A DNA stretch of 49,584 bases, taken from positions 1 through 49,584 of IMG/VR virus record IMGVR_UViG_3300047557_001710; one strand, written 5' to 3'. The stretch's first letter is position 1, and each line of letters starts with the position of its first letter. Of the stretch, positions 7,506 through 49,547 are shown in pieces. A program made the translations under genes and the position numbers. The notes under the pieces are model-generated. The model was not told where the DNA came from. It made no database searches and saw only the letters and a list, made by a program, of their open reading frames with translations. The stretch is from a virus.

Positions 7506-7669
7506 TTTTGTACTTTTGTAATTGCTTGAACTACAGAAGTTGTAATACTCTTGGGATTGTTTTGGTTATCCTTAATCACATAAACAATTTGATTAGGCTC
7601 AAGAGTTTGATTGAGAACTTGCTTGTAGTTGCTGGGAAGATTTTTGAAAGTGAAGAGTTCAGCAATCAT
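7502..7669 (-). CDS. Small unrecognised protein (55 aa)
   Basis: Begins MIAELFTFKNLPSNYKQVL. First gene after the module at 7723-7779. Coupled by stop-start overlap to the next gene. No family recognised. Confidence 0.6.
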   Translation of the reverse strand: MIAELFTFKNLPSNYKQVLNQTLEPNQIVYVIKDNQNNPKSITTSVVQAITKVQK

Positions 7670-7722
7670 TTTGAGTTTAGTTAATTGAATTTGGTGTTAA
7701 GGCACAGCCTCTCCACCCATCT

Positions 7723-7779
7723 AATCTACCATAGATCGGGATCTGTGCTCTTTTATTGTGCCAGAAGGATTACTGGCAC
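7723..7779 (-). promoter_or_regulatory. Inverted repeat plus extended -10 module
   Basis: Extended -10 TGGTAGATT (7723-7731), 26-nt spacer, inverted repeat GTGCCAG/CTGGCAC (7758-7779). It drives the genes at 7669 and 7505. Confidence 0.7.
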
Positions 7780-7807
7780 ATGGTATAAGAGACTTGAGTT
7801 GAGACAA

Positions 7808-7969
7808 CTACATCTCATTAACCAAAAAATCAATTTGATGTTGATAGTAATTGATATCCTCAGTAATGGATTCAATCACTTGAACTTGATGTTCTGGAGT
7901 AGTATCTCGTTCCTTGTGTAGTTTCTTGATTTGACTCATTAATTCTTGAATTTGATGTTCTTTATTCAT
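7808..7969 (-). CDS. Small coiled-coil protein (53 aa)
   Basis: Begins MNKEHQIQELMSQIKKLHKE. Strong heptad pattern over nearly its whole length. ATGA overlap with the upstream gene. Probably a helical homodimer or a small adaptor; function unknown. Confidence 0.65.
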   Translation of the reverse strand: MNKEHQIQELMSQIKKLHKERDTTPEHQVQVIESITEDINYYQHQIDFLVNEM

Positions 7970-8226
7970 AGTTGAGATAGAACCCACATCATAGCAGATA
8001 CTTCTTTAGGATCATTCCATCCAGAAACATCATCAGTCATAGTACCATTAGGGCGAAAAATTGCAACTTCATAAGTATCCTTATCTACATTACCATACAG
8101 ACCACAACCAGCAGGACCAGAAACTACACTAATCATCCAACCATTATCAAATGTATGTTTTGCTTGAATCGCATCAGGAATATGATGAGACTCAAACTTA
8201 AGTTGTTGGAATTGATTGTACATCAT
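7966..8226 (-). CDS. Unrecognised 86-residue protein
   Basis: Contains MISVVSGPAGCGLYGNVDKD and a conserved-looking FDNGW block; likely a beta-rich domain. The first usable ATG is at 8226, overlapping the TGA of the membrane-protein gene. Middle gene of the 8790-7808 operon. Confidence 0.65.
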   Translation of the reverse strand: MMYNQFQQLKFESHHIPDAIQAKHTFDNGWMISVVSGPAGCGLYGNVDKDTYEVAIFRPNGTMTDDVSGWNDPKEVSAMMWVLSQL

Positions 8227-8570
8227 CAAAGAGTAATGAACAAAGGAGAATTGATAACTTCGTAAATCTCCCGAGTCTTTACACCAGCTTGATATACGCT
8301 AGATGCAAATTTCTTAGTATTTGGAACAGCTACAGTTTTCAGCCATTCATAAGTGTTGATTGCTACAAGTTGCAGACGCTCAGTACAATAATACTCATTC
8401 CACTTTTGTGAAATTACAGTTGCAATAGCAGCAATAAAAGCACATGCAATCGTAACTCCATTCATAAAATCATGATAGAGTTTGCGATAGTCAATTGAAA
8501 CAATAAAATTAGTCATTTTCTCAGCAGGTGGAAATCCAGAAGTGAAAGAAAGAACTTGTGATTGAGTCAT
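8226..8570 (-). CDS. Small membrane protein (114 aa)
   Basis: One predicted transmembrane helix (GVTIACAFIAAIATVIS, about residues 40-56) followed by a helical cytoplasmic or periplasmic tail. An internal Met at residue 19 is an alternative start. No family recognised. Confidence 0.65.
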   Translation of the reverse strand: MTQSQVLSFTSGFPPAEKMTNFIVSIDYRKLYHDFMNGVTIACAFIAAIATVISQKWNEYYCTERLQLVAINTYEWLKTVAVPNTKKFASSVYQAGVKTREIYEVINSPLFITL

Positions 8571-8604
8571 CGAAAAAAAAAGAATTTAGTAAATGAAATA
8601 AAGT

Positions 8605-8790
8605 TTAATCAACTAGACAAACTTTTACAGAATCTGTGATTCCATTCTTATCTTTGATCTCTTTGATATAAACAATTCCCATTTCAATGAGAGGTTGAAT
8701 TGCCCTCATTCTTTGAGTGTAATTATAAACTTCCCCACCATTTCCAAGAGTTTGAATAATTTCATTTTGAGCTTTGGTGAATTTAATCAT
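8605..8790 (-). CDS. Possible small winged-helix protein (61 aa)
   Basis: The order TKAQNEIIQTLGNGGEVY, then QPLIEMGIVYIKEI and a beta strand, looks like a minimal winged helix, possibly DNA-binding. This is a weak, shape-based guess. First gene behind the module at 8843-8899. Confidence 0.6.
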   Translation of the reverse strand: MIKFTKAQNEIIQTLGNGGEVYNYTQRMRAIQPLIEMGIVYIKEIKDKNGITDSVKVCLVD

Positions 8791-8842
8791 TTGTTTGATT
8801 AATTAATGAAACTGTTGTGAGAGCTACCAGCTCCACCCTTCT

Positions 8843-8899
8843 AATCTACCACACTTTAGCCTCTGTGCTCTTTTATTGTGCCAGTGCTACAACTGGTCC
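8843..8899 (-). promoter_or_regulatory. Inverted repeat plus extended -10 module
   Basis: Extended -10 TGGTAGATT (8843-8851), 26-nt spacer, inverted repeat with arms CCAGT/ACTGG (8878-8899). It drives the operon starting at 8790. Confidence 0.7.
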
Positions 8900-8948
8900 A
8901 AGGGCTATAAGACCCAGAATGAGAAAGGGTCTCAAACTCAACAACACC

Positions 8949-9896
8949 CTATACAATATAATTGCACTCATTGATTGCATCAGTCACCAACTCAATTGAT
9001 TGTGGATTAATATCACAAGTCACACAATTTCTACCTAATAGTTTAGCAGCAATTGCGGTTGTTCCAGAACCTGCGAATGGGTCAAATACCCAACCACCCT
9101 CAGGACAAGATGATTTAATAATTCTCTCCAGTAACTTAAGTGGTTTCTGTGTTGGATACTTACGTTTGTTTGTTTCACTCCTAGAAATGAAATAAACATC
9201 ATCCCATAGATTTTGAACTGGAACACCTTTATTATCTTCAAGATAAATTTTCTTGTAAATTGTGTTTTTTCCAAAATGAAGTAGATTGTGATTATCTAAC
9301 TCAATCAACATATCCTCACTAATTCTCCAACCATAAGTTGGTGTATAACCTTTATATGAAAACATTCTACCTGGACGACTTTTCTCACCAGTGGTTTTTG
9401 CTAGAGCATAAAATCCTTTATCGTCTTGATTTTTGAAACTATTCTTCTCGTATTTTGGATCTAAATCTGTGTATTCAACTTGGAAGTATGGATTACCCTT
9501 ACGCAGAACCATAATGCTATCTACAATATTTCCCCATCCATTCTTGATGTTATTTTTAGGGCCAGAGCGTTTCCAAGAAATATTTGTGTAAAATGAATTC
9601 TTGATTACTTCATCAACTTTAGATAAAACTAAAGCATTACCAATAAAATTATTATGAAGATACATCCAAGAGTTCTTATTCAGCTTTCCCCAGGCTTTAT
9701 TGATAATTTCTGCATACCAATCAATATAATCATCGAATGATGTCCAAGTATCAGTAAATCCCTTCTCCTCTCCATTTGATTCTAACATCTTAAAATCTCT
9801 CTGCAATCCAAAAGGGGGATCCATATAAATCAAATCAAAAGTTTGATCTATATTATCCATCTCCTCGGCAGGTTGTTGTAATATTTCAATACTCAT
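8949..9896 (-). CDS. DNA N6-adenine/N4-cytosine methyltransferase
   Basis: 315 residues with the motif order of beta-class amino-methyltransferases. Catalytic motif IV DPPF is at residues 26-29. The AdoMet-binding motif I FDPFAGSGTTAIAAKLLGRN lies near the C-terminus, preceded by the TQKPLKLLERII segment. The target sequence cannot be read from the protein. It overlaps by 11 nt the upstream gene for a candidate PD-(D/E)XK-like protein, which suggests a restriction-modification-like pair, or a solo methylase protecting phage DNA. Confidence 0.92.
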   Translation of the reverse strand: MSIEILQQPAEEMDNIDQTFDLIYMDPPFGLQRDFKMLESNGEEKGFTDTWTSFDDYIDWYAEIINKAWGKLNKNSWMYLHNNFIGNALVLSKVDEVIKNSFYTNISWKRSGPKNNIKNGWGNIVDSIMVLRKGNPYFQVEYTDLDPKYEKNSFKNQDDKGFYALAKTTGEKSRPGRMFSYKGYTPTYGWRISEDMLIELDNHNLLHFGKNTIYKKIYLEDNKGVPVQNLWDDVYFISRSETNKRKYPTQKPLKLLERIIKSSCPEGGWVFDPFAGSGTTAIAAKLLGRNCVTCDINPQSIELVTDAINECNYIV

Positions 9897-18703: not shown

Positions 18704-19786
18704 TTATTCATTATACTGTTTAACCGAAATAATATCTTTATGTTTCTTTATACGATTTCTATAAACATTAGTAACATTAGTAGGATTGTATCCATTTTCT
18801 TTACACCAAGATGATAGATTACATATATCAACTGTTTCTCCATTTTCAAAAATTATTTTCCATTTTTTGGATGAACTTTTGTTAATGTAACCTTTATAAA
18901 ATCCTTCAGGACACTCAAAAGACATTACATTTTGACTTCCATTAGTGAACCAAGTTTTTCCGTAATTTCCATTTGAAGGACCTTTATTTTTTCCAATTAG
19001 AGTTTGGCTTATTTTTTTCTTATGTTCCTCATCTAACGGAATTCCCCTCAACTTTTCTCCGCGCTCTCTTGCATATTTTCGTCTTTCTTCTTCAGTTAGG
19101 GCAAAAATCCCAAGTTTAAGTTCAAAACACTTTTTCCCACTTATACTTCCACCTTTCTTACCATCTTCGCTCATCTTTTCTTTGCTTCTCCCACAAACTC
19201 CAGTTTTATTTTCTGCATTCAAATTTCCTGCTATTTTACCACCTTTAAATCCATTATTACTTAATTCTTCTTTAGATAAAGCAAATATACCAGTTTTATT
19301 TTTTCTATTAGTTTCTGCTCCCCTTTTACCATACTGGGCTTTTTCTTCACTTGTAAGCCCATGTATTCCAACACCCATTTTCCAAATTTTCTTTCCTATT
19401 TTAATTTTATCTTCAACAGTTAGTGAAAAAATTCCAACTCCCAATTCATGTGCTTTCAATCCACCTTTAATTGCGTTCTTTTTTAATATTTGAAGTGAAA
19501 CATTTCCACTACAATTCTCGTTAAGACACCAAACATCAGTTTGATAAAATGGTTTAATCAATCTTGTTTCAATTTTTTGTGCTTCAATCCAACCTTCATC
19601 AGTATAATCAAAGAGTTCTAGTATCTGCTTTTTTGGAGTATAAAGTTCCCAACACCATTTATGAGTTACAGGAGACCCCCAATACTCTTCATTATATTTC
19701 TTTTCCTTATGAACTCCATAATAGTAATATGGAACTTCTTCAAAGGTAATTTTGTATGTGTAAATTCTTGGACTATGAGTAGTCAT
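18704..19786 (-). CDS. GIY-YIG homing endonuclease with repeat array
   Basis: 360 residues. The N-terminal nuclease domain shows the divergent GIY-YIG signature RIYTYKITF then PYYYYGVHKEK, with the catalytic-helix segment AQKIETRLI and the Asn of WCLNENC. It is followed by about five 24-29-residue repeats with the core G[VI]G[IV]-[FH]-[AS]LT-EE, a NUMOD3-like EEHKKKISQTLIG, and a C-terminal domain not shared with the other three paralogues. Behind a paired-arm element (19794-19888). Confidence 0.85.
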   Translation of the reverse strand: MTTHSPRIYTYKITFEEVPYYYYGVHKEKKYNEEYWGSPVTHKWCWELYTPKKQILELFDYTDEGWIEAQKIETRLIKPFYQTDVWCLNENCSGNVSLQILKKNAIKGGLKAHELGVGIFSLTVEDKIKIGKKIWKMGVGIHGLTSEEKAQYGKRGAETNRKNKTGIFALSKEELSNNGFKGGKIAGNLNAENKTGVCGRSKEKMSEDGKKGGSISGKKCFELKLGIFALTEEERRKYARERGEKLRGIPLDEEHKKKISQTLIGKNKGPSNGNYGKTWFTNGSQNVMSFECPEGFYKGYINKSSSKKWKIIFENGETVDICNLSSWCKENGYNPTNVTNVYRNRIKKHKDIISVKQYNE

Positions 19787-31245: not shown

Positions 31246-31367
31246 TTGGAGTAACGAGATTTGAACTCGTGACCTATCGCTTATTCGGTATAAGAGGTAA
31301 TGCTCCTCTTTAAACAAACTTTTGATACCGTAAGGCGACCGCTCTTACCTGACTGAGCTATACTCCA
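31246..31367 (-). tRNA. tRNA with about 47-nt insertion in the anticodon arm (possibly Val, TAC)
   Basis: 122 nt. Acceptor TGGAGTA/TACTCCA, D-arm GCTC/GAGC, T-arm ACGAG-TTCAAAT-CTCGT are normal. The anticodon stem GTCGC/GCGAT encloses about 54 nt. If CTTACGG is the loop, the anticodon is TAC (Val) and the insertion follows it. The insert folds as CGGTAT/ATACCG around a hairpin AGAGG/CCTCT. Confidence 0.6.
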
Positions 31368-32785: not shown

Positions 32786-32841
32786 ATTGTAGCAGAGATT
32801 TGAGAGATTTGGGAAGCTAATGGACGGTTGATTAGCCGTCC
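32786..32841 (-). promoter_or_regulatory. Inverted repeat plus extended -10 module
   Basis: Extended -10 TGCTACAAT (32786-32794), 27-nt spacer, inverted repeat GGACGG/CCGTCC (32822-32841). Confidence 0.7.
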
Positions 32842-33161
32842 ACAGAATTAGTACTAACTCCAGCAGCTTCTAGGGCACGATTTACACGATTATTGATAAA
32901 AGCCTCAATATCAGCATCAATACGCTCCATCACATAAAATGCAACTTCACGGGTCAGTCCCTGACCATAGTTATGGCGAATATAATACAGAATTTCGTCT
33001 CGGAACCAACTGGTCTGCATTTCAGTTTTCACTTCCTCAAGAATATTTTGTTTCTCAAGAAGTTGATTGCGGCGAGTCTGGAGTTCTTCCAGAAGATAAT
33101 TTGCTGCTGTGATGACGTTATCTAGTTGAACCAGAGCATCATTTACAGTCGTGGTAGTCAT
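32832..33161 (-). CDS. Helical protein (109 aa)
   Basis: Coiled-coil-like N-terminal half (LVQLDNVITAANYLLEELQT; LLEKQNILEEVKTEM), then YYIRHNYGQGLTREVAFYVM. Its 3' end overlaps the inverted repeat of the next module. No family recognised. Confidence 0.68.
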   Translation of the reverse strand: MTTTTVNDALVQLDNVITAANYLLEELQTRRNQLLEKQNILEEVKTEMQTSWFRDEILYYIRHNYGQGLTREVAFYVMERIDADIEAFINNRVNRALEAAGVSTNSVDG

Positions 33162-33258: not shown

Positions 33259-34257
33259 TCAAAAATTGTTATCAGCAGATAACCTAATTCGTTTTGACCT
33301 ATCTATACCTCTTGCTTTTTGGTATGAATTTAAACCTCCAGGATTAGAAATGTATCCAGTCTCTAGACACATCCACTTTTGAGAATTTACTTTTTTAATA
33401 TTTTCTCTCAATTGTTCTTTACTCACAGTAGCAATTCCTAATCCAAGTTCATAAAGTTTTTTTCCGTGTTCCACCATCTGCTCCTTAGTTCTTGCGTGAA
33501 CTCCTACTCCAAGTTCATATGCAGTTTTTCCTCCAAGTTTGCAAATTTCTACTCTTTCTTCTGGGGTTTGTGCGTGAATTCCAACACCAAGTAGATATGT
33601 ATTAGTACCATTTATCCTACCCTGCTCTTGCATATCTTCTTTAGTTCTTGCATGAACTCCTACACCAAGTTCATAAGCTCTTTTTCCGGCTTTACTACTA
33701 TCCAATTTAATTTGCTCTTTAGTTCTTCCATGAACTCCTACACCAAGTTCATAAGATTTTTTACCACCCAGGCTAGAATTTTCTATTCTTTCTTCTGGGG
33801 TTTGTGCGTGAATTCCAATTTTGAGTTCATAGGTTTTTTGTCCTATTTCACTCCCAAGCTTTCTTCTTTCTTCTAAAGACATTCCACATATTCCAGTTTT
33901 ATTTTCTTTATTTTTATTTCCTTGTATTATTCCACTTCTTTTACCAGCTTCTCTACAACTTTTTAATGAAAAATTTCCAGCACAATTTTCGTTGAGACAC
34001 CATTTATCAGTATTATAGAATGGTCTAATCAATCTTTTTTCAACTTCTTGTGCTTCTAGATATCCTTTATCACTAAACTCAAAAAACTGAAGTATTTGTT
34101 TCTTTGGAGTATAGAAGTCCCAGGCCCACTTGTGAGTTACTGGTGTTCCCATATAGTACTCATCAAACTTCTTTTCTTTATGAACTCCGTAATAATAATA
34201 CCTTACTTCTTCAAAGGTAATTTTGTATATGTAAATTCTTGGACTATTTTTAGTCAT
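33259..34257 (-). CDS. GIY-YIG homing endonuclease with seven repeats
   Basis: 332 residues. N-terminal GIY-YIG domain (RIYIYKITF, then RYYYYGVHKEK; AQEVEKRLIRPFYNTDKW). Then seven repeats of about 24 residues with consensus YELGVGVHARTKEQ, the highest number among the four paralogues. C-terminal CLETGYISNPGGLNSYQKAR module, NUMOD1-like, shared with two paralogues. It lies immediately downstream of the E1/ThiF gene. Confidence 0.87.
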   Translation of the reverse strand: MTKNSPRIYIYKITFEEVRYYYYGVHKEKKFDEYYMGTPVTHKWAWDFYTPKKQILQFFEFSDKGYLEAQEVEKRLIRPFYNTDKWCLNENCAGNFSLKSCREAGKRSGIIQGNKNKENKTGICGMSLEERRKLGSEIGQKTYELKIGIHAQTPEERIENSSLGGKKSYELGVGVHGRTKEQIKLDSSKAGKRAYELGVGVHARTKEDMQEQGRINGTNTYLLGVGIHAQTPEERVEICKLGGKTAYELGVGVHARTKEQMVEHGKKLYELGLGIATVSKEQLRENIKKVNSQKWMCLETGYISNPGGLNSYQKARGIDRSKRIRLSADNNF

Positions 34258-34375: not shown

Positions 34376-35089
34376 TTAAGATACTGTAGTTTTCATATTA
34401 CGAAGGTTGAAAAACATAGCACTTTGTTTAGGATTTAGTTCTCCATCTAGAAGATTTTGAATAAATGCTAAAGTAGCAGCGGCACAGAAAAAGTTTATCG
34501 AAATTAATTGAGGGTGAGATGGTGCAGCAAGAGCACAACTACCCTTCTGGGGAATGCTATCTTGGGGACGTTCGATATTAGGATAAACCTCTGCTGGATT
34601 GATACCTACATTCTCTCCACCCACTCGACCCCAATACAGAGTTTGACCCTTTACAGTTTCTGTCCCATCGCTATTACCAGGGCTAATGAAGAAAAAGTCT
34701 CCTTCACAAGTATTTTGAATAGATTTGATGATAGCAAGACGAGTTGCATCATTATCCACACAACAAACAATCATCGGGGATGTAGCCCGACGAAGCATAG
34801 GCGTAAAAGTGGAAAGAGAAATAAAGTCCTCTTTACATTCAATATTATTGATTAGACCCTGATACGCGCAGAAATCCACCATAGCGCGAGCTTTGTTCAT
34901 TCCAATTTGGGATTCTCCTACAAGTTGACGAGTTGCATTTTTTTCTTCAAACTCATCACCATCAATAAAAATAGTCTTTGCTCCTTGAGTATTAGGATGA
35001 TATGCAACAAGTCGTGCTAGAGGTGCAGCTAGATGACCTCCAGTACCACCAACACCAATTACAAAAACAAAGTCAGGATTGAAAGTCAT
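34376..35089 (-). CDS. E1-like/ThiF adenylating enzyme (PRTRC-type)
   Basis: 237 residues. Rossmann fold with GVGGTG (residues 12-17), ATP site D43-G-D45-E...N51-A-T-R54-Q55, K66 in NKARAM, D112 in CVDND, and a candidate catalytic Cys185 in GSCALAAPSHPQ. The short length and GSCA-type block resemble ThiF proteins of the PRTRC cassette. It would adenylate the C-terminus of a ubiquitin-like protein, probably the product of 38431-38697. Next to the PRTRC-B-like and JAMM genes. Confidence 0.85.
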   Translation of the reverse strand: MTFNPDFVFVIGVGGTGGHLAAPLARLVAYHPNTQGAKTIFIDGDEFEEKNATRQLVGESQIGMNKARAMVDFCAYQGLINNIECKEDFISLSTFTPMLRRATSPMIVCCVDNDATRLAIIKSIQNTCEGDFFFISPGNSDGTETVKGQTLYWGRVGGENVGINPAEVYPNIERPQDSIPQKGSCALAAPSHPQLISINFFCAAATLAFIQNLLDGELNPKQSAMFFNLRNMKTTVS

Positions 35090-35110
35090 AGTTTGGTTTT
35101 AACTTCAGTA

Positions 35111-35170
35111 ATTATAGGACAATAATGAGAAAATTGGGAAAGTCGTAGGGCAGTATCAAAGCTGTCCTAC
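35111..35170 (-). promoter_or_regulatory. Inverted repeat plus -10 module
   Basis: -10 TCCTATAAT (35111-35119), 25-nt spacer, long inverted repeat GTAGGgCAG/CTGtCCTAC (35145-35170). It drives the ThiF gene. Confidence 0.65.
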
Positions 35171-36118
35171 GAGTAGTCCAGTATCTTCACCATTTGGTGA
35201 AATAAACCAAGATTTATCTACTGCATCTGGAATGGTATTGTATCCACGATAGAGTTTTTCATTACGCTCAAATTCACAATCAACGAGTGGAATTAGCATA
35301 ACGTGAGGAGCTTTTGGTAGAGGTTTGAACCCAGCCATTAGCATCGTATAAAATGCCTGGATATTTTCTTCTGCATCTAGAACCATCAAAGCATCTGCAC
35401 TTTTACATAGATACATCTCCTCATCACCAACTTCACACTCACTATATGAGCTATTACGAATTTCATAACAGTTTTCCTCAAATGTTTCTAGAGAAACTAG
35501 ATCATTATTGAATGGAGTAGAGAAATAGTTAGTTACCATTTCCCTAAGATTTTTGGGTTTAGGATTGTATCCCCAACAAATGCCTTCTGGATAACTTGAA
35601 TCTCCAAATACGTTTGAAGCCATTTCAATATGAGTTGCTTTTAGTAGATTACCGTCTTCTACTTCAATTCCTTGAAGATATGCACTATCTTTTACATATT
35701 CAAATCTTGGAATTTTTCCAAGATGAGTTAGATGAATCTCAAATACCATATTAGATACATCAAATGAAATATAGTTGTCTTCCTTTTCAAACCCTCTAGG
35801 GCAATATTGACCGTGGTATCCATCATCATATACACTACAATGTCCTTCTAGGTCTGGATGGTCCCAGTCTACTTCCCCATTCTCTTCGTCGTAATACGCA
35901 TCTAGAAATGAATGGCAATTCCTATCACAATATTCACAATGTTGATTATAAAAATCATCATCAGTCATTTTGGTAGTTTGATGGATGTGTTGAAACCCAT
36001 CAGACATCCAAGCAGAAATTACCAGAGTATCTGTAACTCGGTAAGTAATTGCATCAGTATTTTTTGGGAGTAGATGAATTTTTACTTTTGCTGGCTCTGT
36101 TGGAAAAATTACGGACAT
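35156..36118 (-). CDS. PRTRC protein B-like (candidate E2-like component)
   Basis: 320 residues. The C-terminal half contains SNVFGDSSYPEGICWGYNP, then MVTNYFSTPFNNDLVSLETF, which resembles the signature of PRTRC protein B (a conserved SPFN-DL block). Published genome-context work has proposed an E2-like role for that family. The N-terminal half holds a Cys/His-rich insertion (CEYCDRNCHSF; GHCSVYDDGYHGQYCPRGF) that probably binds zinc and is not usual for PRTRC-B. Between the JAMM and E1 genes. Confidence 0.6.
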   Translation of the reverse strand: MSVIFPTEPAKVKIHLLPKNTDAITYRVTDTLVISAWMSDGFQHIHQTTKMTDDDFYNQHCEYCDRNCHSFLDAYYDEENGEVDWDHPDLEGHCSVYDDGYHGQYCPRGFEKEDNYISFDVSNMVFEIHLTHLGKIPRFEYVKDSAYLQGIEVEDGNLLKATHIEMASNVFGDSSYPEGICWGYNPKPKNLREMVTNYFSTPFNNDLVSLETFEENCYEIRNSSYSECEVGDEEMYLCKSADALMVLDAEENIQAFYTMLMAGFKPLPKAPHVMLIPLVDCEFERNEKLYRGYNTIPDAVDKSWFISPNGEDTGLLVGQL

Positions 36119-36141
36119 GAGATTTCGATTGGTATGGCGTC

Positions 36142-36203
36142 AGTCTAGCACAAAAAAAGTCAATACTGAGAAAGCCCAGACACCTGCAAAAGTGTCTGGG
36201 CTT
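36142..36203 (-). promoter_or_regulatory. Promoter module with strong terminator-type inverted repeat
   Basis: Extended -10 TGCTAGACT (36142-36150). The inverted repeat is lengthened into an 11-bp terminator stem AGCCCAGACAC/GTGTCTGGGCT (36174-36203). It terminates the JAMM transcript and precedes the PRTRC-B-like gene. Confidence 0.7.
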
Positions 36204-36206
36204 TTA

Positions 36207-37223
36207 TCACATTTCTTGGAATTCTGGCTCTAGCAATACTTCAAGGTCTTGAAGAAAATCATAAAGTTCATCTCGCATTTCTTTGAGTGCCGTTGGATTA
36301 TTGTTATTCTCAACAACAAAGTCCTTAAGCGTATCTGCGATATTCCAAGGTTGAATCGTAGAAGATGAATTATATGTATTACTCCAATAGAATGGGTCTG
36401 AAAAGTCGTCTTCCCAACCCCAATTCTTGAGGTCATTATAATCCCTCTTAGGGCTAGTTTTAGTTTCTTTCTTATTCCAGGTAGAAGGATATTTGGTAAA
36501 TCCACCCTTGACCGAATATGTCGATACAGGAGTGCTGTAATCTACATAATCGAGAACTTTTGGATGAAACTCTTGACCTGGGATGGGAGTTGCATCAATA
36601 AGCTTATCGTATTCCACCATAAACCTGCGACCACTACCTACTACAGAGGCGGCAATAGTATATTTCATATCTTTTGGATTGATTGAACCTACAACGATAT
36701 GAATTCCTGGATCTCCAAGCTCATACTTATCATCAGTTCCTGAGAAGAAGGCTTGCATGGTATTGTGACTGTGGGAGCTACCAACAGGAACCCAACCCTC
36801 TGGTGGATAAGAAGTAATCTCTTCTCCAGTATCAATATCAATAGCCTCGTCAAAACTATCTACGCGAACAGAGGCACCAGATACCTTCTGTTTAGGTACT
36901 AGAAACCGATACACACTAGGGTCTTCTTCACTACGAAGAATACGCATAGAAACTTCTACACAAGCTTGTACTTTATCGACATAGTAGAAGCACAGTTTAA
37001 TCCACTTCGCCCAAAGTTCTGCTGGGATACGATTAATGTCTTCCTTCAGCTCAAAATGCTTCAGATGTTCGTCAGTAATTTCAGCATTTGCTTCTGGGTC
37101 AAATGTTGGGCGAATATACTTCCCCCAAGGACCATCATAAATTTCCCAACAACCATCCTTTGCCGTGCGAAGAATGGTAGGAGTTTCTTGAATAGTTTCT
37201 TGAATAGTTTCTTGGGTAGTCAT
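36207..37223 (-). CDS. JAMM/MPN+ (JAB) metallopeptidase
   Basis: 338 residues. Perfect JAMM motif H151-S-H153-x7-S161-x2-D164 in the segment starting SHSHNTMQAFFSG. An upstream Glu90 (CVEVS) can complete the zinc site. JAMM enzymes in ubiquitin-like cassettes process the Ub-like C-terminus or remove it from targets (compare PRTRC protein A). The N-terminus has repeats of TIQE, and the C-terminal 100 residues are an aromatic-rich region plus an acidic helix. It has its own promoter module. Confidence 0.85.
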   Translation of the reverse strand: MTTQETIQETIQETPTILRTAKDGCWEIYDGPWGKYIRPTFDPEANAEITDEHLKHFELKEDINRIPAELWAKWIKLCFYYVDKVQACVEVSMRILRSEEDPSVYRFLVPKQKVSGASVRVDSFDEAIDIDTGEEITSYPPEGWVPVGSSHSHNTMQAFFSGTDDKYELGDPGIHIVVGSINPKDMKYTIAASVVGSGRRFMVEYDKLIDATPIPGQEFHPKVLDYVDYSTPVSTYSVKGGFTKYPSTWNKKETKTSPKRDYNDLKNWGWEDDFSDPFYWSNTYNSSSTIQPWNIADTLKDFVVENNNNPTALKEMRDELYDFLQDLEVLLEPEFQEM

Positions 37224-37245
37224 AGTTTTAGCTGATTACCTCCTT

Positions 37246-37302
37246 ATGGTAGCAGATGATGGGAGTGATTTGCGGTGCCTTGTGGCGGTTCAAAATGTGG
37301 TC
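37246..37302 (-). promoter_or_regulatory. Inverted repeat plus extended -10 module
   Basis: Extended -10 TGCTACCAT (37246-37254), 29-nt spacer, imperfect inverted repeat starting GGCGGTTC (37284-37302). It drives the JAMM gene. Confidence 0.65.
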
Positions 37303-37313
37303 TAATATAAGAA

Positions 37314-37336
37314 AAGGCTCCCAGTTTGAGAGCCTT
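37314..37336 (-). terminator. Terminator after the GIY-YIG gene
   Basis: Stem AAGGCTC/GAGCCTT with a 9-nt loop. Confidence 0.65.
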
Positions 37337-37357
37337 GAGAAATTCTAATTATTTTAA

Positions 37358-38245
37358 TTATTCTAATCGTTCTCGTAGTGAGGTATCTATGCCTCTGGCT
37401 TTTTGATAACTAGAAAGGCCAGCAGGATTTGAAATGTATCCAGTTTCAAGGCATTTCCACTTTTGAGAATTTGTTTTTGATGCTATACGTCTCCGTTCAT
37501 CAGGAGATATCTTATGACAACCCACTTTAAGTTCTGCACTTCTCTTACCTCCAAGCTTTCCAGCTATACTTTTTTCTTTTTTACTTAATCCACAAATACC
37601 AGTTTTATTCTCTTTATGTTTGTTTCCAGATTTTTTTCCATTTTCACTTCTCTCTTCTGGTAGGAGACTAAAAATGCCTATTCCAAGTTCTTTGCACATA
37701 GTTCCTACAATTTTTCCACCCACTTTTCCACCCATAATAGCAATTTCTTTTCTTTGTTCAGGAGTTAAACCACAAATACCTTTCTTGTTTTCTTTATTTT
37801 TTTGTCCGTTTCTTTTTCCAAGCTCACTTTTTTCATCATTAGTCATAGCAAATATACCTTTCTTTTCCTCTTTCATTCTTTTACCAACTATTGAGCCATT
37901 AATTTTTCCATATTTACTACCAAGTAACTTTCCAACTTTCCTAGATATTTGTACTGATACCATACCACCACAACTTTCATTTAAACACCACTTATCAGTA
38001 TTATAGAATGGTCTAATCAATCTTTTCTCAACTTCTTGTGCTTCTAAATATCCTTCATCACTAAGCTCAAAAAATTGAAGTATTTGTTTTTTTGGAGTAT
38101 AGAAGTCCCAGGCCCACTTGTGAGTTACTGGTGTTCCCATATAGTACTCATCAAACTTCTTTTCTTTATGAACTCCATAGTAATAATAAGGAACTTCTTC
38201 AAAAGTAATCTTATATATGTAAATTCTTGGACTGTTTTTAGTCAT
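37358..38245 (-). CDS. GIY-YIG homing endonuclease inside the ubiquitin-like cassette
   Basis: 295 residues. Same N-terminal nuclease domain as 33259-34257 (nearly identical over the first 90 residues), about five repeats (KKGIFAMTNDEK; KKGICGLTPEQR; GIGIFSLLPEER; KTGICGLSKKEK; KVGCHKISPDER) and the CLETGYISNPAGLSSYQKAR tail. It is inserted between the beta-grasp gene and the JAMM gene, with its own paired-arm element. Confidence 0.87.
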   Translation of the reverse strand: MTKNSPRIYIYKITFEEVPYYYYGVHKEKKFDEYYMGTPVTHKWAWDFYTPKKQILQFFELSDEGYLEAQEVEKRLIRPFYNTDKWCLNESCGGMVSVQISRKVGKLLGSKYGKINGSIVGKRMKEEKKGIFAMTNDEKSELGKRNGQKNKENKKGICGLTPEQRKEIAIMGGKVGGKIVGTMCKELGIGIFSLLPEERSENGKKSGNKHKENKTGICGLSKKEKSIAGKLGGKRSAELKVGCHKISPDERRRIASKTNSQKWKCLETGYISNPAGLSSYQKARGIDTSLRERLE

Positions 38246-38257
38246 AGTTCTATTCTA

Positions 38258-38347
38258 TTAAGACCGCATCTTTATTTATATTAGCTCCTAAAAGATTAGG
38301 TGCCCCAAAGAGCACCTAATCTTATCTGTAGAGAATTGCGGTCTTAA
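38258..38347 (-). promoter_or_regulatory. Paired-arm element upstream of a GIY-YIG gene
   Basis: Arms TTAAGACCGCA (38258-38268) and its complement (38337-38347) enclose an 11-bp terminator stem AGATTAGGTGC/GCACCTAATCT (38294-38321 region) and a minus-strand TATAAATAAA (near 38271-38280). Confidence 0.75.
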
Positions 38348-38384
38348 CAGACTTTATTATTTATAAGGTTTTATGGATACAAAA

Positions 38385-38403
38385 AAAGCCCTAGAAGGGC
38401 TTT
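38385..38403 (-). terminator. Terminator of the beta-grasp gene
   Basis: Stem AAAGCCC/GGGCTTT with a 5-nt loop, flanked on the minus strand by a T-run. It isolates the beta-grasp gene from the downstream endonuclease. Confidence 0.75.
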
Positions 38404-38430
38404 AATCTCATATTGAGGCTTGGATAATAC

Positions 38431-38697
38431 TCAATATACACCCTTACTCTCACTAGAAATTGCTACCCTCAGAATTTCAGATGGGCGGATAACCGTATCA
38501 CCAGAAACAGCAGTACCGTTGATGATGTAACGATTTACACGAGAAGCATCAACTAGACCACCAGCGTATTCAGCTACGAGCTGGGAAACAGTCTTACCAC
38601 GATATTGAGCTTCCGTAAGAGTGATACTCTCCTCATTTACCAGAATTTGCACGGTGGCTGAATAATCTTGTTCGCGGATGCTATCAAAGAAGGACAT
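38431..38697 (-). CDS. Ubiquitin-like beta-grasp protein (ThiS/MoaD/PRTRC-C type)
   Basis: 88 residues. Predicted order strand-strand-helix-strand-strand: ATVQILVNEESITLT, then KTVSQLVAEYAG, RYIINGTAVSGDTVIRPSEI, LRVAISS. The NG--V--DTVIRP-E pattern is characteristic of ThiS/MoaD/Ub folds. The C-terminus is SSESKGVY, lacking a terminal Gly-Gly, so processing by the JAMM enzyme after the Gly or a non-canonical attachment would be needed. Start at MSFFDSIREQ; the longer frame crosses the -10. Confidence 0.75.
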   Translation of the reverse strand: MSFFDSIREQDYSATVQILVNEESITLTEAQYRGKTVSQLVAEYAGGLVDASRVNRYIINGTAVSGDTVIRPSEILRVAISSESKGVY

Positions 38698-38758
38698 AGT
38701 AAATCTCAAAAATAAAGGACAAAGTTGAAGTGAAGGTGTTTCCCTCACCGACCCAATC

Positions 38759-38817
38759 AATATAGCAGAGAAGCGATTGATTTGGAGTCAGTAGTGGACG
38801 GTTCCAAAAGTGGAACC
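38759..38817 (-). promoter_or_regulatory. Inverted repeat plus extended -10 module
   Basis: Extended -10 TGCTATATT (38759-38767), 28-nt spacer, inverted repeat with perfect GGTTCC/GGAACC core (38796-38817). It drives the beta-grasp gene. Confidence 0.7.
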
Positions 38818-43468: not shown

Positions 43469-43648
43469 CTAGTAGGTTGGTGGATGATACTTTAAAAATT
43501 CACGAAAGGTCATTTTCATTTCTTTATTTGTCATCCCACAATGAACCGCTGCCTGTGGTAGATTCATTTTAGAATAAAATAAAGCTTCGTTAGCTTCCTT
43601 TACATTTTCTGGTGTAGTCTTTACTTTGTGAAACTTCTCAACATCCAT
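43469..43648 (-). CDS. Small helical protein (59 aa)
   Basis: Contains VKEANEALFYSKMNLPQAAV, then HCGMTNKEMKMTFREF and HPPTY. This is the two-helix layout of a small HTH-like transcription factor, though not conclusive. Overlaps the Dps gene by 28 nt. Confidence 0.6.
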   Translation of the reverse strand: MDVEKFHKVKTTPENVKEANEALFYSKMNLPQAAVHCGMTNKEMKMTFREFLKYHPPTY

Positions 43649-44058
43649 ACCCTTTTTCCTGCACTTTCAGCTAAATCATCTAATACATTACAAGTTGCTC
43701 TTTGATTCTGTTTATCTGCTTCATCAGCAGCCTCACGATATAAATTAATTAAAGTTTGATTATCTTTCATTAGATCTTCAACCATTCCCATATCATCTAA
43801 ATTACTATTAGCTTCTAGAATATGAGATACTTCTGTTAACCTTTTTAGGGTGCTTACTGGTTTAATATTGAGAAATCTCATATGCTCTGTAATTCTATCA
43901 ATCTCTTCAAACATTTCTTCATATTGGTCTCCAAAGGTATTATGTAATTGGTGAAAATCTTGACCAACTACATTCCAATGATAAACCCAAGTTTTTTGAA
44001 ATAAATTAAAGAGTGTTGCTTGAGAGTCAGATAATTTCTTATAGAGCTTTTCCATCAT
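43621..44058 (-). CDS. dps: Dps ferritin-like protein
   Basis: 145 residues. His27, His39, Asp54 and Glu58 match the spacing of the E. coli Dps ferroxidase ligands (His51, His63, Asp78, Glu82). The HWNVVGQDFHQLHNTFGDQY block is typical of Dps. Dps shells oxidise and store iron with H2O2 and protect DNA from oxidative damage. The phage copy lacks a long basic N-terminus, so DNA binding may be weak. Confidence 0.9.
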   Translation of the reverse strand: MMEKLYKKLSDSQATLFNLFQKTWVYHWNVVGQDFHQLHNTFGDQYEEMFEEIDRITEHMRFLNIKPVSTLKRLTEVSHILEANSNLDDMGMVEDLMKDNQTLINLYREAADEADKQNQRATCNVLDDLAESAGKRVWMLRSFTK

Positions 44059-48776: not shown

Positions 48777-48834
48777 ATTATACAAGAAAAGGCACTTGAA
48801 ATCAAGTGCCCCTGTTCCAGTTTATGAAGTGTCC
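48777..48834 (-). promoter_or_regulatory. Promoter module with terminator in the spacer
   Basis: TGTATAAT (48777-48784), 29-nt spacer containing the terminator stem GGCACTTGA/TCAAGTGCC (48791-48810), imperfect inverted repeat from 48814. It drives the 48753 to 45860 gene series. Confidence 0.65.
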
Positions 48835-49547
48835 TATGTTATTCTGCGTCTGTTACTTTTAGATGTATCTATTCCCTTTCCTTTTTGATAAGAAACTACA
48901 CCAGCAGCAGTTGATACATATCCAGTTATACAGCATTCCCATTTTTGTGCGTTTATTATTTCTGCACCCTTTCTACCATCTTCAATAATTTTTTCTTTAC
49001 TTCTTGCATGAACTCCCAATTTAAGTTCTGATGATATTTTTCCACCTAATTTTCCACCATTTTTAGCATTTTCAAGTATTTTTTCTTTACTTAAAGAATG
49101 AATACCAAGTTTCATTTCGTATGTTTTTTTCCCTCCTATAGTTCCACTTTTTTTACTATCTTTAGTTATTTTTTCTGTTGTTCTTCCAAACAACCCATTT
49201 TTAAGTTCATATAATTTTTTTCCAACTTTTTGTCCGGTTTTTCTTCTAATATTGAGAGATATTAATCCACCAACATTTTCATTCAAGCACCACTTATCAT
49301 TATTGAATACAGGTTTTATCAATCTTTTTTCAACTTCTTGTGCTTCAAGATACCCTTCATCTGTGTAATCAAAAACTTGAAGTATTTGTTTCTCTGGTGT
49401 ATAAAAATTCCAACACCATTTATGAGTTACAGGAGTTCCCATATAGTACTCATTATACTTTCGTTCCTTATGAACTCCGTAGTAATAATAAGGAACTTCT
49501 TCAAAAGTAATTTTATACAAGTATATTCTTGGACTTTGTGAAGTCAT
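48834..49547 (-). CDS. GIY-YIG homing endonuclease (short paralogue)
   Basis: 237 residues. Same N-terminal domain (RIYLYKITF, then PYYYYGVHKERKY), three repeats (ELKNGLFGRTTEK; EMKLGIHSLSKEK; ELKLGVHARSKEK) and the CCITGYVSTAAGVVSYQKGK tail. Left half of a paired-arm element (49561-49571) precedes it; the other half lies beyond the window. Confidence 0.85.
   Translation of the reverse strand: MTSQSPRIYLYKITFEEVPYYYYGVHKERKYNEYYMGTPVTHKWCWNFYTPEKQILQVFDYTDEGYLEAQEVEKRLIKPVFNNDKWCLNENVGGLISLNIRRKTGQKVGKKLYELKNGLFGRTTEKITKDSKKSGTIGGKKTYEMKLGIHSLSKEKILENAKNGGKLGGKISSELKLGVHARSKEKIIEDGRKGAEIINAQKWECCITGYVSTAAGVVSYQKGKGIDTSKSNRRRIT

Follow-up and report, generated by a model that had tools for sequence, protein, structure and literature searches.

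The virus record IMGVR_UViG_3300047557_001710, analysed here over its full 49,584 nt (the window), carries on its minus strand a cluster of genes encoding a ubiquitin-like protein (UBL), a JAMM (JAB) metallopeptidase, an E2-like protein and an E1-like enzyme, which is the gene content of the broad class of bacterial E1-E2-JAB-UBL operons. The presence of a complete ubiquitin-like conjugation cassette in this T4-like phage has good support at the level of anatomy and homology. The original prediction, made from the sequence alone, had proposed a PRTRC-like cassette of four genes lying together. All four open reading frames are confirmed, intact and on the minus strand, at the positions in Table 1, and they do cluster, but are not contiguous, since a homing endonuclease gene splits the UBL gene from the JAMM gene. 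Two conserved elements had been absent from that prediction, namely a gene for a 109-residue protein and a leader before the UBL gene.

Table 1. Features of the cassette region in the window, in order of transcription
Feature	Position	Strand	Description	Basis
Leader 5' of UBL gene	38698..38760	-	GGTCGGTGAGGG at 38742-38753, then TGTCCTTTA	
UBL	38431..38697	-	88-residue ubiquitin-like beta-grasp protein; ends SSESKG then VY, KG being the predicted mature end	Open reading frame, AlphaFold2, Foldseek, relatives
Homing endonuclease (phrog_314, free-standing)	37358..38245	-	Between UBL and JAMM genes; outside the cassette proper	E 1e-8
JAMM/JAB metallopeptidase	36207..37223	-	PRTRC-A-related; predicted UBL maturation and deconjugation	Prok-JAB 3.1e-6; PRTRC_A (TIGR03735) 8.2e-6; catalytic residues
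E2-like protein	35156..36118	-	PRTRC-B/Prok-E2_D-related; candidate active site C181; insertion C61-C64-C94-C106	hhalign 96.5%, E 7.9e-10
E1/ThiF-like adenylating enzyme	34376..35089	-	Candidate catalytic Cys185	ThiF 1.9e-8; PRTRC_ThiF (TIGR03736) 3.6e-17, residues 8-234
Homing endonuclease (phrog_314), second copy	33259..34257	-	Between E1 gene and 109-residue gene	E 1.2e-6
109-residue protein	32832..33161	-	Fifth conserved gene, 3' of E1; no convincing family match	Conservation in G1

Scans of IMG/VR revealed cassettes of the window type, here termed G1, in ~16 other distinct contigs, all from uncultured phages, with the order UBL-JAMM-E2-E1 repeated in the 14 other distinct contigs that had sufficient flank. 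A T4-type Gp23 capsid protein is encoded in all four of the large G1 contigs tested (161-284 kb, E below 1e-143). Values of dN/dS for the core genes are mostly 0.1-0.3, so that the cassette genes are maintained under purifying selection and, given also the recurring gene order, chance is excluded. A PRTRC-ordered type, G2, is present in many IMG/VR phages and in the cultured phages Arash, D69/D148/D181 and KLEB27-3, and phage ME3 carries a related cassette. Profile-profile comparison of G1 with the G2 and plasmid proteins gave 99.9% for E1 (6e-33), 99.6% for JAMM (4e-24), 96.5% for the E2-like protein (8e-10) and 15% for the UBL, against at most 1.5% for mismatched pairs. A scan of GTDB genomes with the window-type JAMM profile returned one distant locus only, leaving the window type without a known bacterial source or host among the genomes sampled. 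Solved structures, searched by sequence with the UBL, E2 and JAMM profiles, yielded no relatives of use.

The 88-residue protein had been proposed to be a beta-grasp, and its predicted structure agrees, with a beta-beta-alpha-beta-beta fold modelled by AlphaFold2 at moderate confidence (pLDDT 73.5) and best Foldseek matches in the PDB that are mostly TGS, SUMO, NEDD8 and ubiquitin (mostly probability 0.99-1.00, TM ~0.5-0.66, E 0.004-0.016). Direct family searches with the window UBL gave no significant match, Prok_Ub and PRTRC-C included, and some G1 relatives weakly match ThiS (0.0062) and Ub-Mut7C (0.0038), not Prok_Ub; the UBL groups with ThiS/ubiquitin-type beta-grasps and not with PRTRC-C. 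Lys-Gly (KG) closes every G1 UBL except that of contig L034, followed by tails of 0-2 residues (none, S, F, VY, LG, RH, AA). The end is exactly KG in seven of the first-collected G1 UBLs, to which later loci added one more exact KG and one AA tail (the UBL of L032 was located by eye). Judged from this conservation, the real tag end is Lys-Gly, and SKGVY in the window is KG with a two-residue tail. The earlier view that the SKGVY end, not being Gly-Gly, may need trimming is supported, with KG as the end to be exposed. Precursors of ubiquitin and SUMO are built in this way, which explains the SKGVY end, and the predicted UBL has a C-terminal Gly, free or after processing, as the broad operon class does. 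G2 phages encode tandem UBLs with KG closing each unit (five in contig L044, four in Bacillus phage KLEB27-3, three in Vibrio phage D69 and two in several others), an arrangement that resembles polyubiquitin. The Arash UBL (L013 107-304) is wrongly framed in GenBank as gp251c.

The ATP-binding and Cys185 features expected of the E1 enzyme are borne out by conservation: GxGGTG, D43/D45, R54, K66 and D112 are kept in essentially all relatives, and C185 is present in 15/15 phages of the window type. In the E1 tree, G1 forms a single clade (100/100) on a long stem, Arash and D69 fall in a separate clade and KLEB27-3 stands beside a Cytobacillus plasmid, although some rows are long-branched and the deep joins unsure. 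The annotated start of the D69 E1 (VPHD69_0301, L012 8872-9819) cuts off the nucleotide-binding GxGGTG motif. A third arrangement, in contigs L053, L063, L065, L069, L074, L076 and L080, consists of a gene for an E1-like protein of ~196 residues adjoining a JAMM gene; at these loci neither a catalytic-Cys motif in the E1-like protein nor a UBL or E2 was found.

The JAMM motif HxHx7SxxD, which had been read as intact, is near-universal: E90, H151, H153, S161 and D164 (the motif and a distal Glu) are kept in nearly all of ~61 relatives. The same catalytic set is retained where the UBL requires no trimming, and its retention in such phages suggests a second role, in deconjugation, whereby JAMM would remove the tag as well as mature the UBL. 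Searches of the window JAMM protein detected no NlpC/P60 domain. In several phages the active site of the JAMM gene is split by group I introns (L036 8402-8642, L106 5741-5981, L113 5804-6040, L082 7649-7924, L019 4862-5198), following SSHSH in three G1 phages, between VDIH and SHN in L082 (match below the gathering score) and following MDIH in ME3.

The 320-residue E2-like protein of the window has no significant direct match, the TIGR03737 and PF14460 hidden Markov models included. Profile comparison with the phage and plasmid PRTRC-B set nevertheless supports the proposed PRTRC-B relationship, C181 is aligned to the PRTRC-B Cys and is invariant in 32/32 sequences, and Prok-E2_D is matched by 14/32 of the E2-like sequences (best 2.6e-24). 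A zinc insertion had also been suggested. Its four candidate Cys are conserved in 14/15 G1 phages, L034 lacking three of the four, and would probably bind zinc; the insertion may have an E3-like role. L034 carries its G1 cassette at 7532-9799, with a UBL ending in SKQA and an E2-like protein without most of the Cys insertion.

The fifth gene lies 3' of E1 in 12/17 G1 phages. Its 109-residue product has no significant Pfam or PHROG match and, having been considered as an E2, UBL, JAMM or E1, does not match these profiles; it is possibly a substrate, an adaptor or an E3-like factor. Within the window the UBL leader is the sole perfect match to its sequence, and a conserved form (GGTCGGTGAGG...TGTC[C/G]TTTA) stands directly 5' of the UBL gene among relatives. 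An IMG/VR scan found nine contigs with the leader ahead of a UBL gene and five chance-like matches, and every match in G1 contigs adjoins the UBL gene on its upstream side. The element fits a promoter or a leader under dedicated control, and T4 late promoters (TATAAATA) are not consistently present upstream of the cassette genes.

The relationship to the PRTRC systems of plasmids can be defined more closely. An operon of type 6d was described in bacteria, and its E2 relationship argued, by Iyer et al. 2006 (PMC1779556). By sequence comparison the window E1 and JAMM clearly belong with this PRTRC type, as does the E2-like protein by profile comparison, the three being homologous to their plasmid counterparts (6d; TIGR03735-03738, Prok-E2_D, Prok_Ub); plasmid PRTRC-C is also KG-ended (RRAAGTKG in Aromatoleum). 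However, PRTRC_ThiF scores 62.5 bits, over nearly its full length, against a cut-off of 144.75, and PRTRC-A 25.5 against 101.8 bits with the C-terminal JAB part alone, and no DUF2016/JAB-N domain was matched in the window JAMM. ParB_N was not found in the window, four related large contigs or four phage genomes, in searches where controls matched, although the window and the contigs may each represent only part of a genome. The PRTRC-F (alpha-hel2) profile gave no match, its control being likewise silent. The plasmid order is C-F-B-A-ThiF, in contrast to UBL-JAMM-E2-E1 in the window, where no F or E was seen and where the four-Cys insertion, the 109-residue partner and the conserved leader are additional. 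The failure to find ParB, the scores below cut-off and the ThiS/ubiquitin-type UBL together place the cassette outside PRTRC proper; PRTRC-like, as had been predicted, and expected to work in a similar way, it is not a member in the strict sense.

The cultured phages Arash (Salmonella), D69/D148/D181 (Vibrio), KLEB27-3 (Bacillus) and ME3 (Acinetobacter) encode E1, JAMM and E2-like proteins homologous to those of the window and, ME3 excepted, a KG-ended UBL. They differ from the window in that no T4 Gp23 was detected, tandem poly-UBLs are frequent, the gene order is PRTRC-like (checked in part for ME3) and the E1s lie on separate branches; PRTRC_A or ThiF labels occur only in the ME3 and KLEB27-3 records. 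The Bil (BilABCD) and CBASS Cap2/Cap3 systems share the logic of E1, E2 and JAB around a covalently attached protein, but are built of other families, to which the window E1 is distantly similar, and serve cellular defence; BilA is a two-domain UBL (PMC11354881).

We consider it likely that this large T4-like phage encodes a ubiquitin-like conjugation pathway that is self-contained and reversible, in which we infer the individual reactions, their order, the zinc and the target. JAMM would trim the UBL precursor after Lys-Gly, taking VY off in the window and separating the tandem UBLs of related phages. E1 would adenylate the terminal Gly and then bind the UBL through a thioester at Cys185, from which it would be handed to Cys181 of the PRTRC-B/E2-like protein for attachment to one or more lysines in a protein of the host or the phage. 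The four-Cys, probably zinc-binding, insertion and the 109-residue partner perhaps assist the E2-like protein in place of an E3, and JAMM would also take the tag off. Trypsin is predicted to leave one Gly on targets of a KG-ended tag, to which standard K-GG proteomics would be blind.

The pathway is favoured by the profile matches of E1, JAMM and the E2-like protein to their PRTRC/G2 counterparts, the ubiquitin-type model of the UBL, the KG ends and tandem precursors, the JAMM catalytic set kept where no trimming is needed, the invariant E1 and E2 Cys, the shared gene order, the low dN/dS and the listing of the Arash relatives in a particle proteome (PMC10585845). Several observations weigh against it. 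The cassette comes without a recognised E3 or substrate. The model of the E2-like protein (pLDDT 92, pTM 0.85) has no UBC-fold match in the PDB by Foldseek, a viral structure library searched in the same way gave nothing informative, and where bacterial 6d E2s are reported to have a downstream His (PMC1779556), the window protein appears to have Asn (FNNDL). Because the fold search returned no UBC match, the proposed E2 role is carried by PRTRC-B profile homology and the invariant Cys. The profile link of the UBL to PRTRC-C/Prok_Ub is weak, the L034 UBL lacks KG although its E1, E2 Cys and JAMM are kept, and the candidate UBL of ME3 ends in DGNKAA.

The similarity of G1 UBLs to ThiS and Ub-Mut7C, together with the pairing of E1-like and JAB proteins in sulfur pathways (PMC1779556), would also suit a sulfur-carrier or small-molecule pathway without tagging, in which E1 makes a UBL thiocarboxylate (as for ThiS, MoaD or CysO) and JAMM releases the product, as Mec does from CysO. 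However, every cassette includes an E2-like protein whose Cys is invariant, E1 Cys185 is conserved, tandem precursors with KG between units suit a tag and no rhodanese or sulfur-transfer gene was found among the window open reading frames searched (not every small one was included), making such a pathway improbable. A tail-assembly pair like TapI/TapK of lambda, whose only action would be UBL proteolysis during virion assembly, has a precedent in the UBL and JAB genes of lambda-like tail clusters (PMC1779556). The lambda pair has no E1 or E2, its JAB is fused to NlpC/P60 and its context is tail genes, whereas the window has E1 and E2-like genes, a JAMM without detected NlpC/P60 and RNA ligase, kinase, phosphatase and nuclease genes as neighbours. 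Gene content and context led us to reject this candidate, to which we would give hardly any chance.

It has also to be considered that the phage JAMM, UBL, E1 and E2 disturb host CBASS Cap2/Cap3 or Bil, as decoys or conjugate removers. Phages have a strong general incentive to block such systems, and alignments of the window E1 were obtained with E1-E2 defence models (5e-10) and, weakly, with BilD. A decoy would nevertheless need less than a complete cassette that includes a tag, PRTRC is a closer relative of the cassette than either CBASS or Bil, and all four parts are kept in unrelated phages. We therefore judge disturbance of this kind to be unlikely, although a working tag could still serve counter-defence, in which case the two readings overlap.

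A wider form of the conjugation pathway, which we regard as tentative and rather doubtful, holds that unrelated large-phage lineages carry, and partly package, a complete and reversible KG-tag pathway, its tag often produced as a poly-UBL precursor, with host proteins tagged early by an E2-like protein with a zinc E3-like module; the single Gly left by trypsin is isobaric with carbamidomethyl, and tagging would thus have escaped notice. Tandem mass spectrometry of purified Arash particles listed Gp246, Gp247, Gp248 and Gp249 (PMC10585845), which include the Arash E1 (gp246), JAMM (gp247) and E2 (gp248) even if the table numbering is shifted by one relative to GenBank. The same study cautions that enzymes abundant inside the cell may be purified along with particles (PMC10585845), and packaging is therefore not proven. 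The wrongly framed Arash UBL may have been missing from the searched protein list. No literature linking PRTRC, ubiquitin and phages was found in open papers, which is weak as evidence of absence.

Elsewhere in the window, T4-like genes include those for RNA ligase 1, a kinase and a metallophosphoesterase. Four related homing-endonuclease genes are present, two inside or beside the cassette (Table 1) and two at 18704-19786 and 48834-49547, and relatives of the phrog_314 endonuclease sit elsewhere in other phages. A 122-nt Rfam tRNA match at 31246-31367, in a tRNA cluster, is absent from ARAGORN output and may hold an insertion, and a ferritin-like (Dps-type) protein is encoded at 43621-44058 (6.6e-23).

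To our knowledge, bacterial ubiquitin-like conjugation has so far been known mainly as a cellular anti-phage defence, and for the PRTRC cassettes of plasmids no function was found in open papers. The cassette described here most likely serves to tag a protein of the host or the phage reversibly, and some bacterial viruses probably supply the infected cell with protein-tagging machinery of their own. Cassettes with intact residues in phages, cultured ones included, offer tractable systems for the function of PRTRC-type tagging, and suggest that viruses may use such chemistry offensively or for virion maturation.

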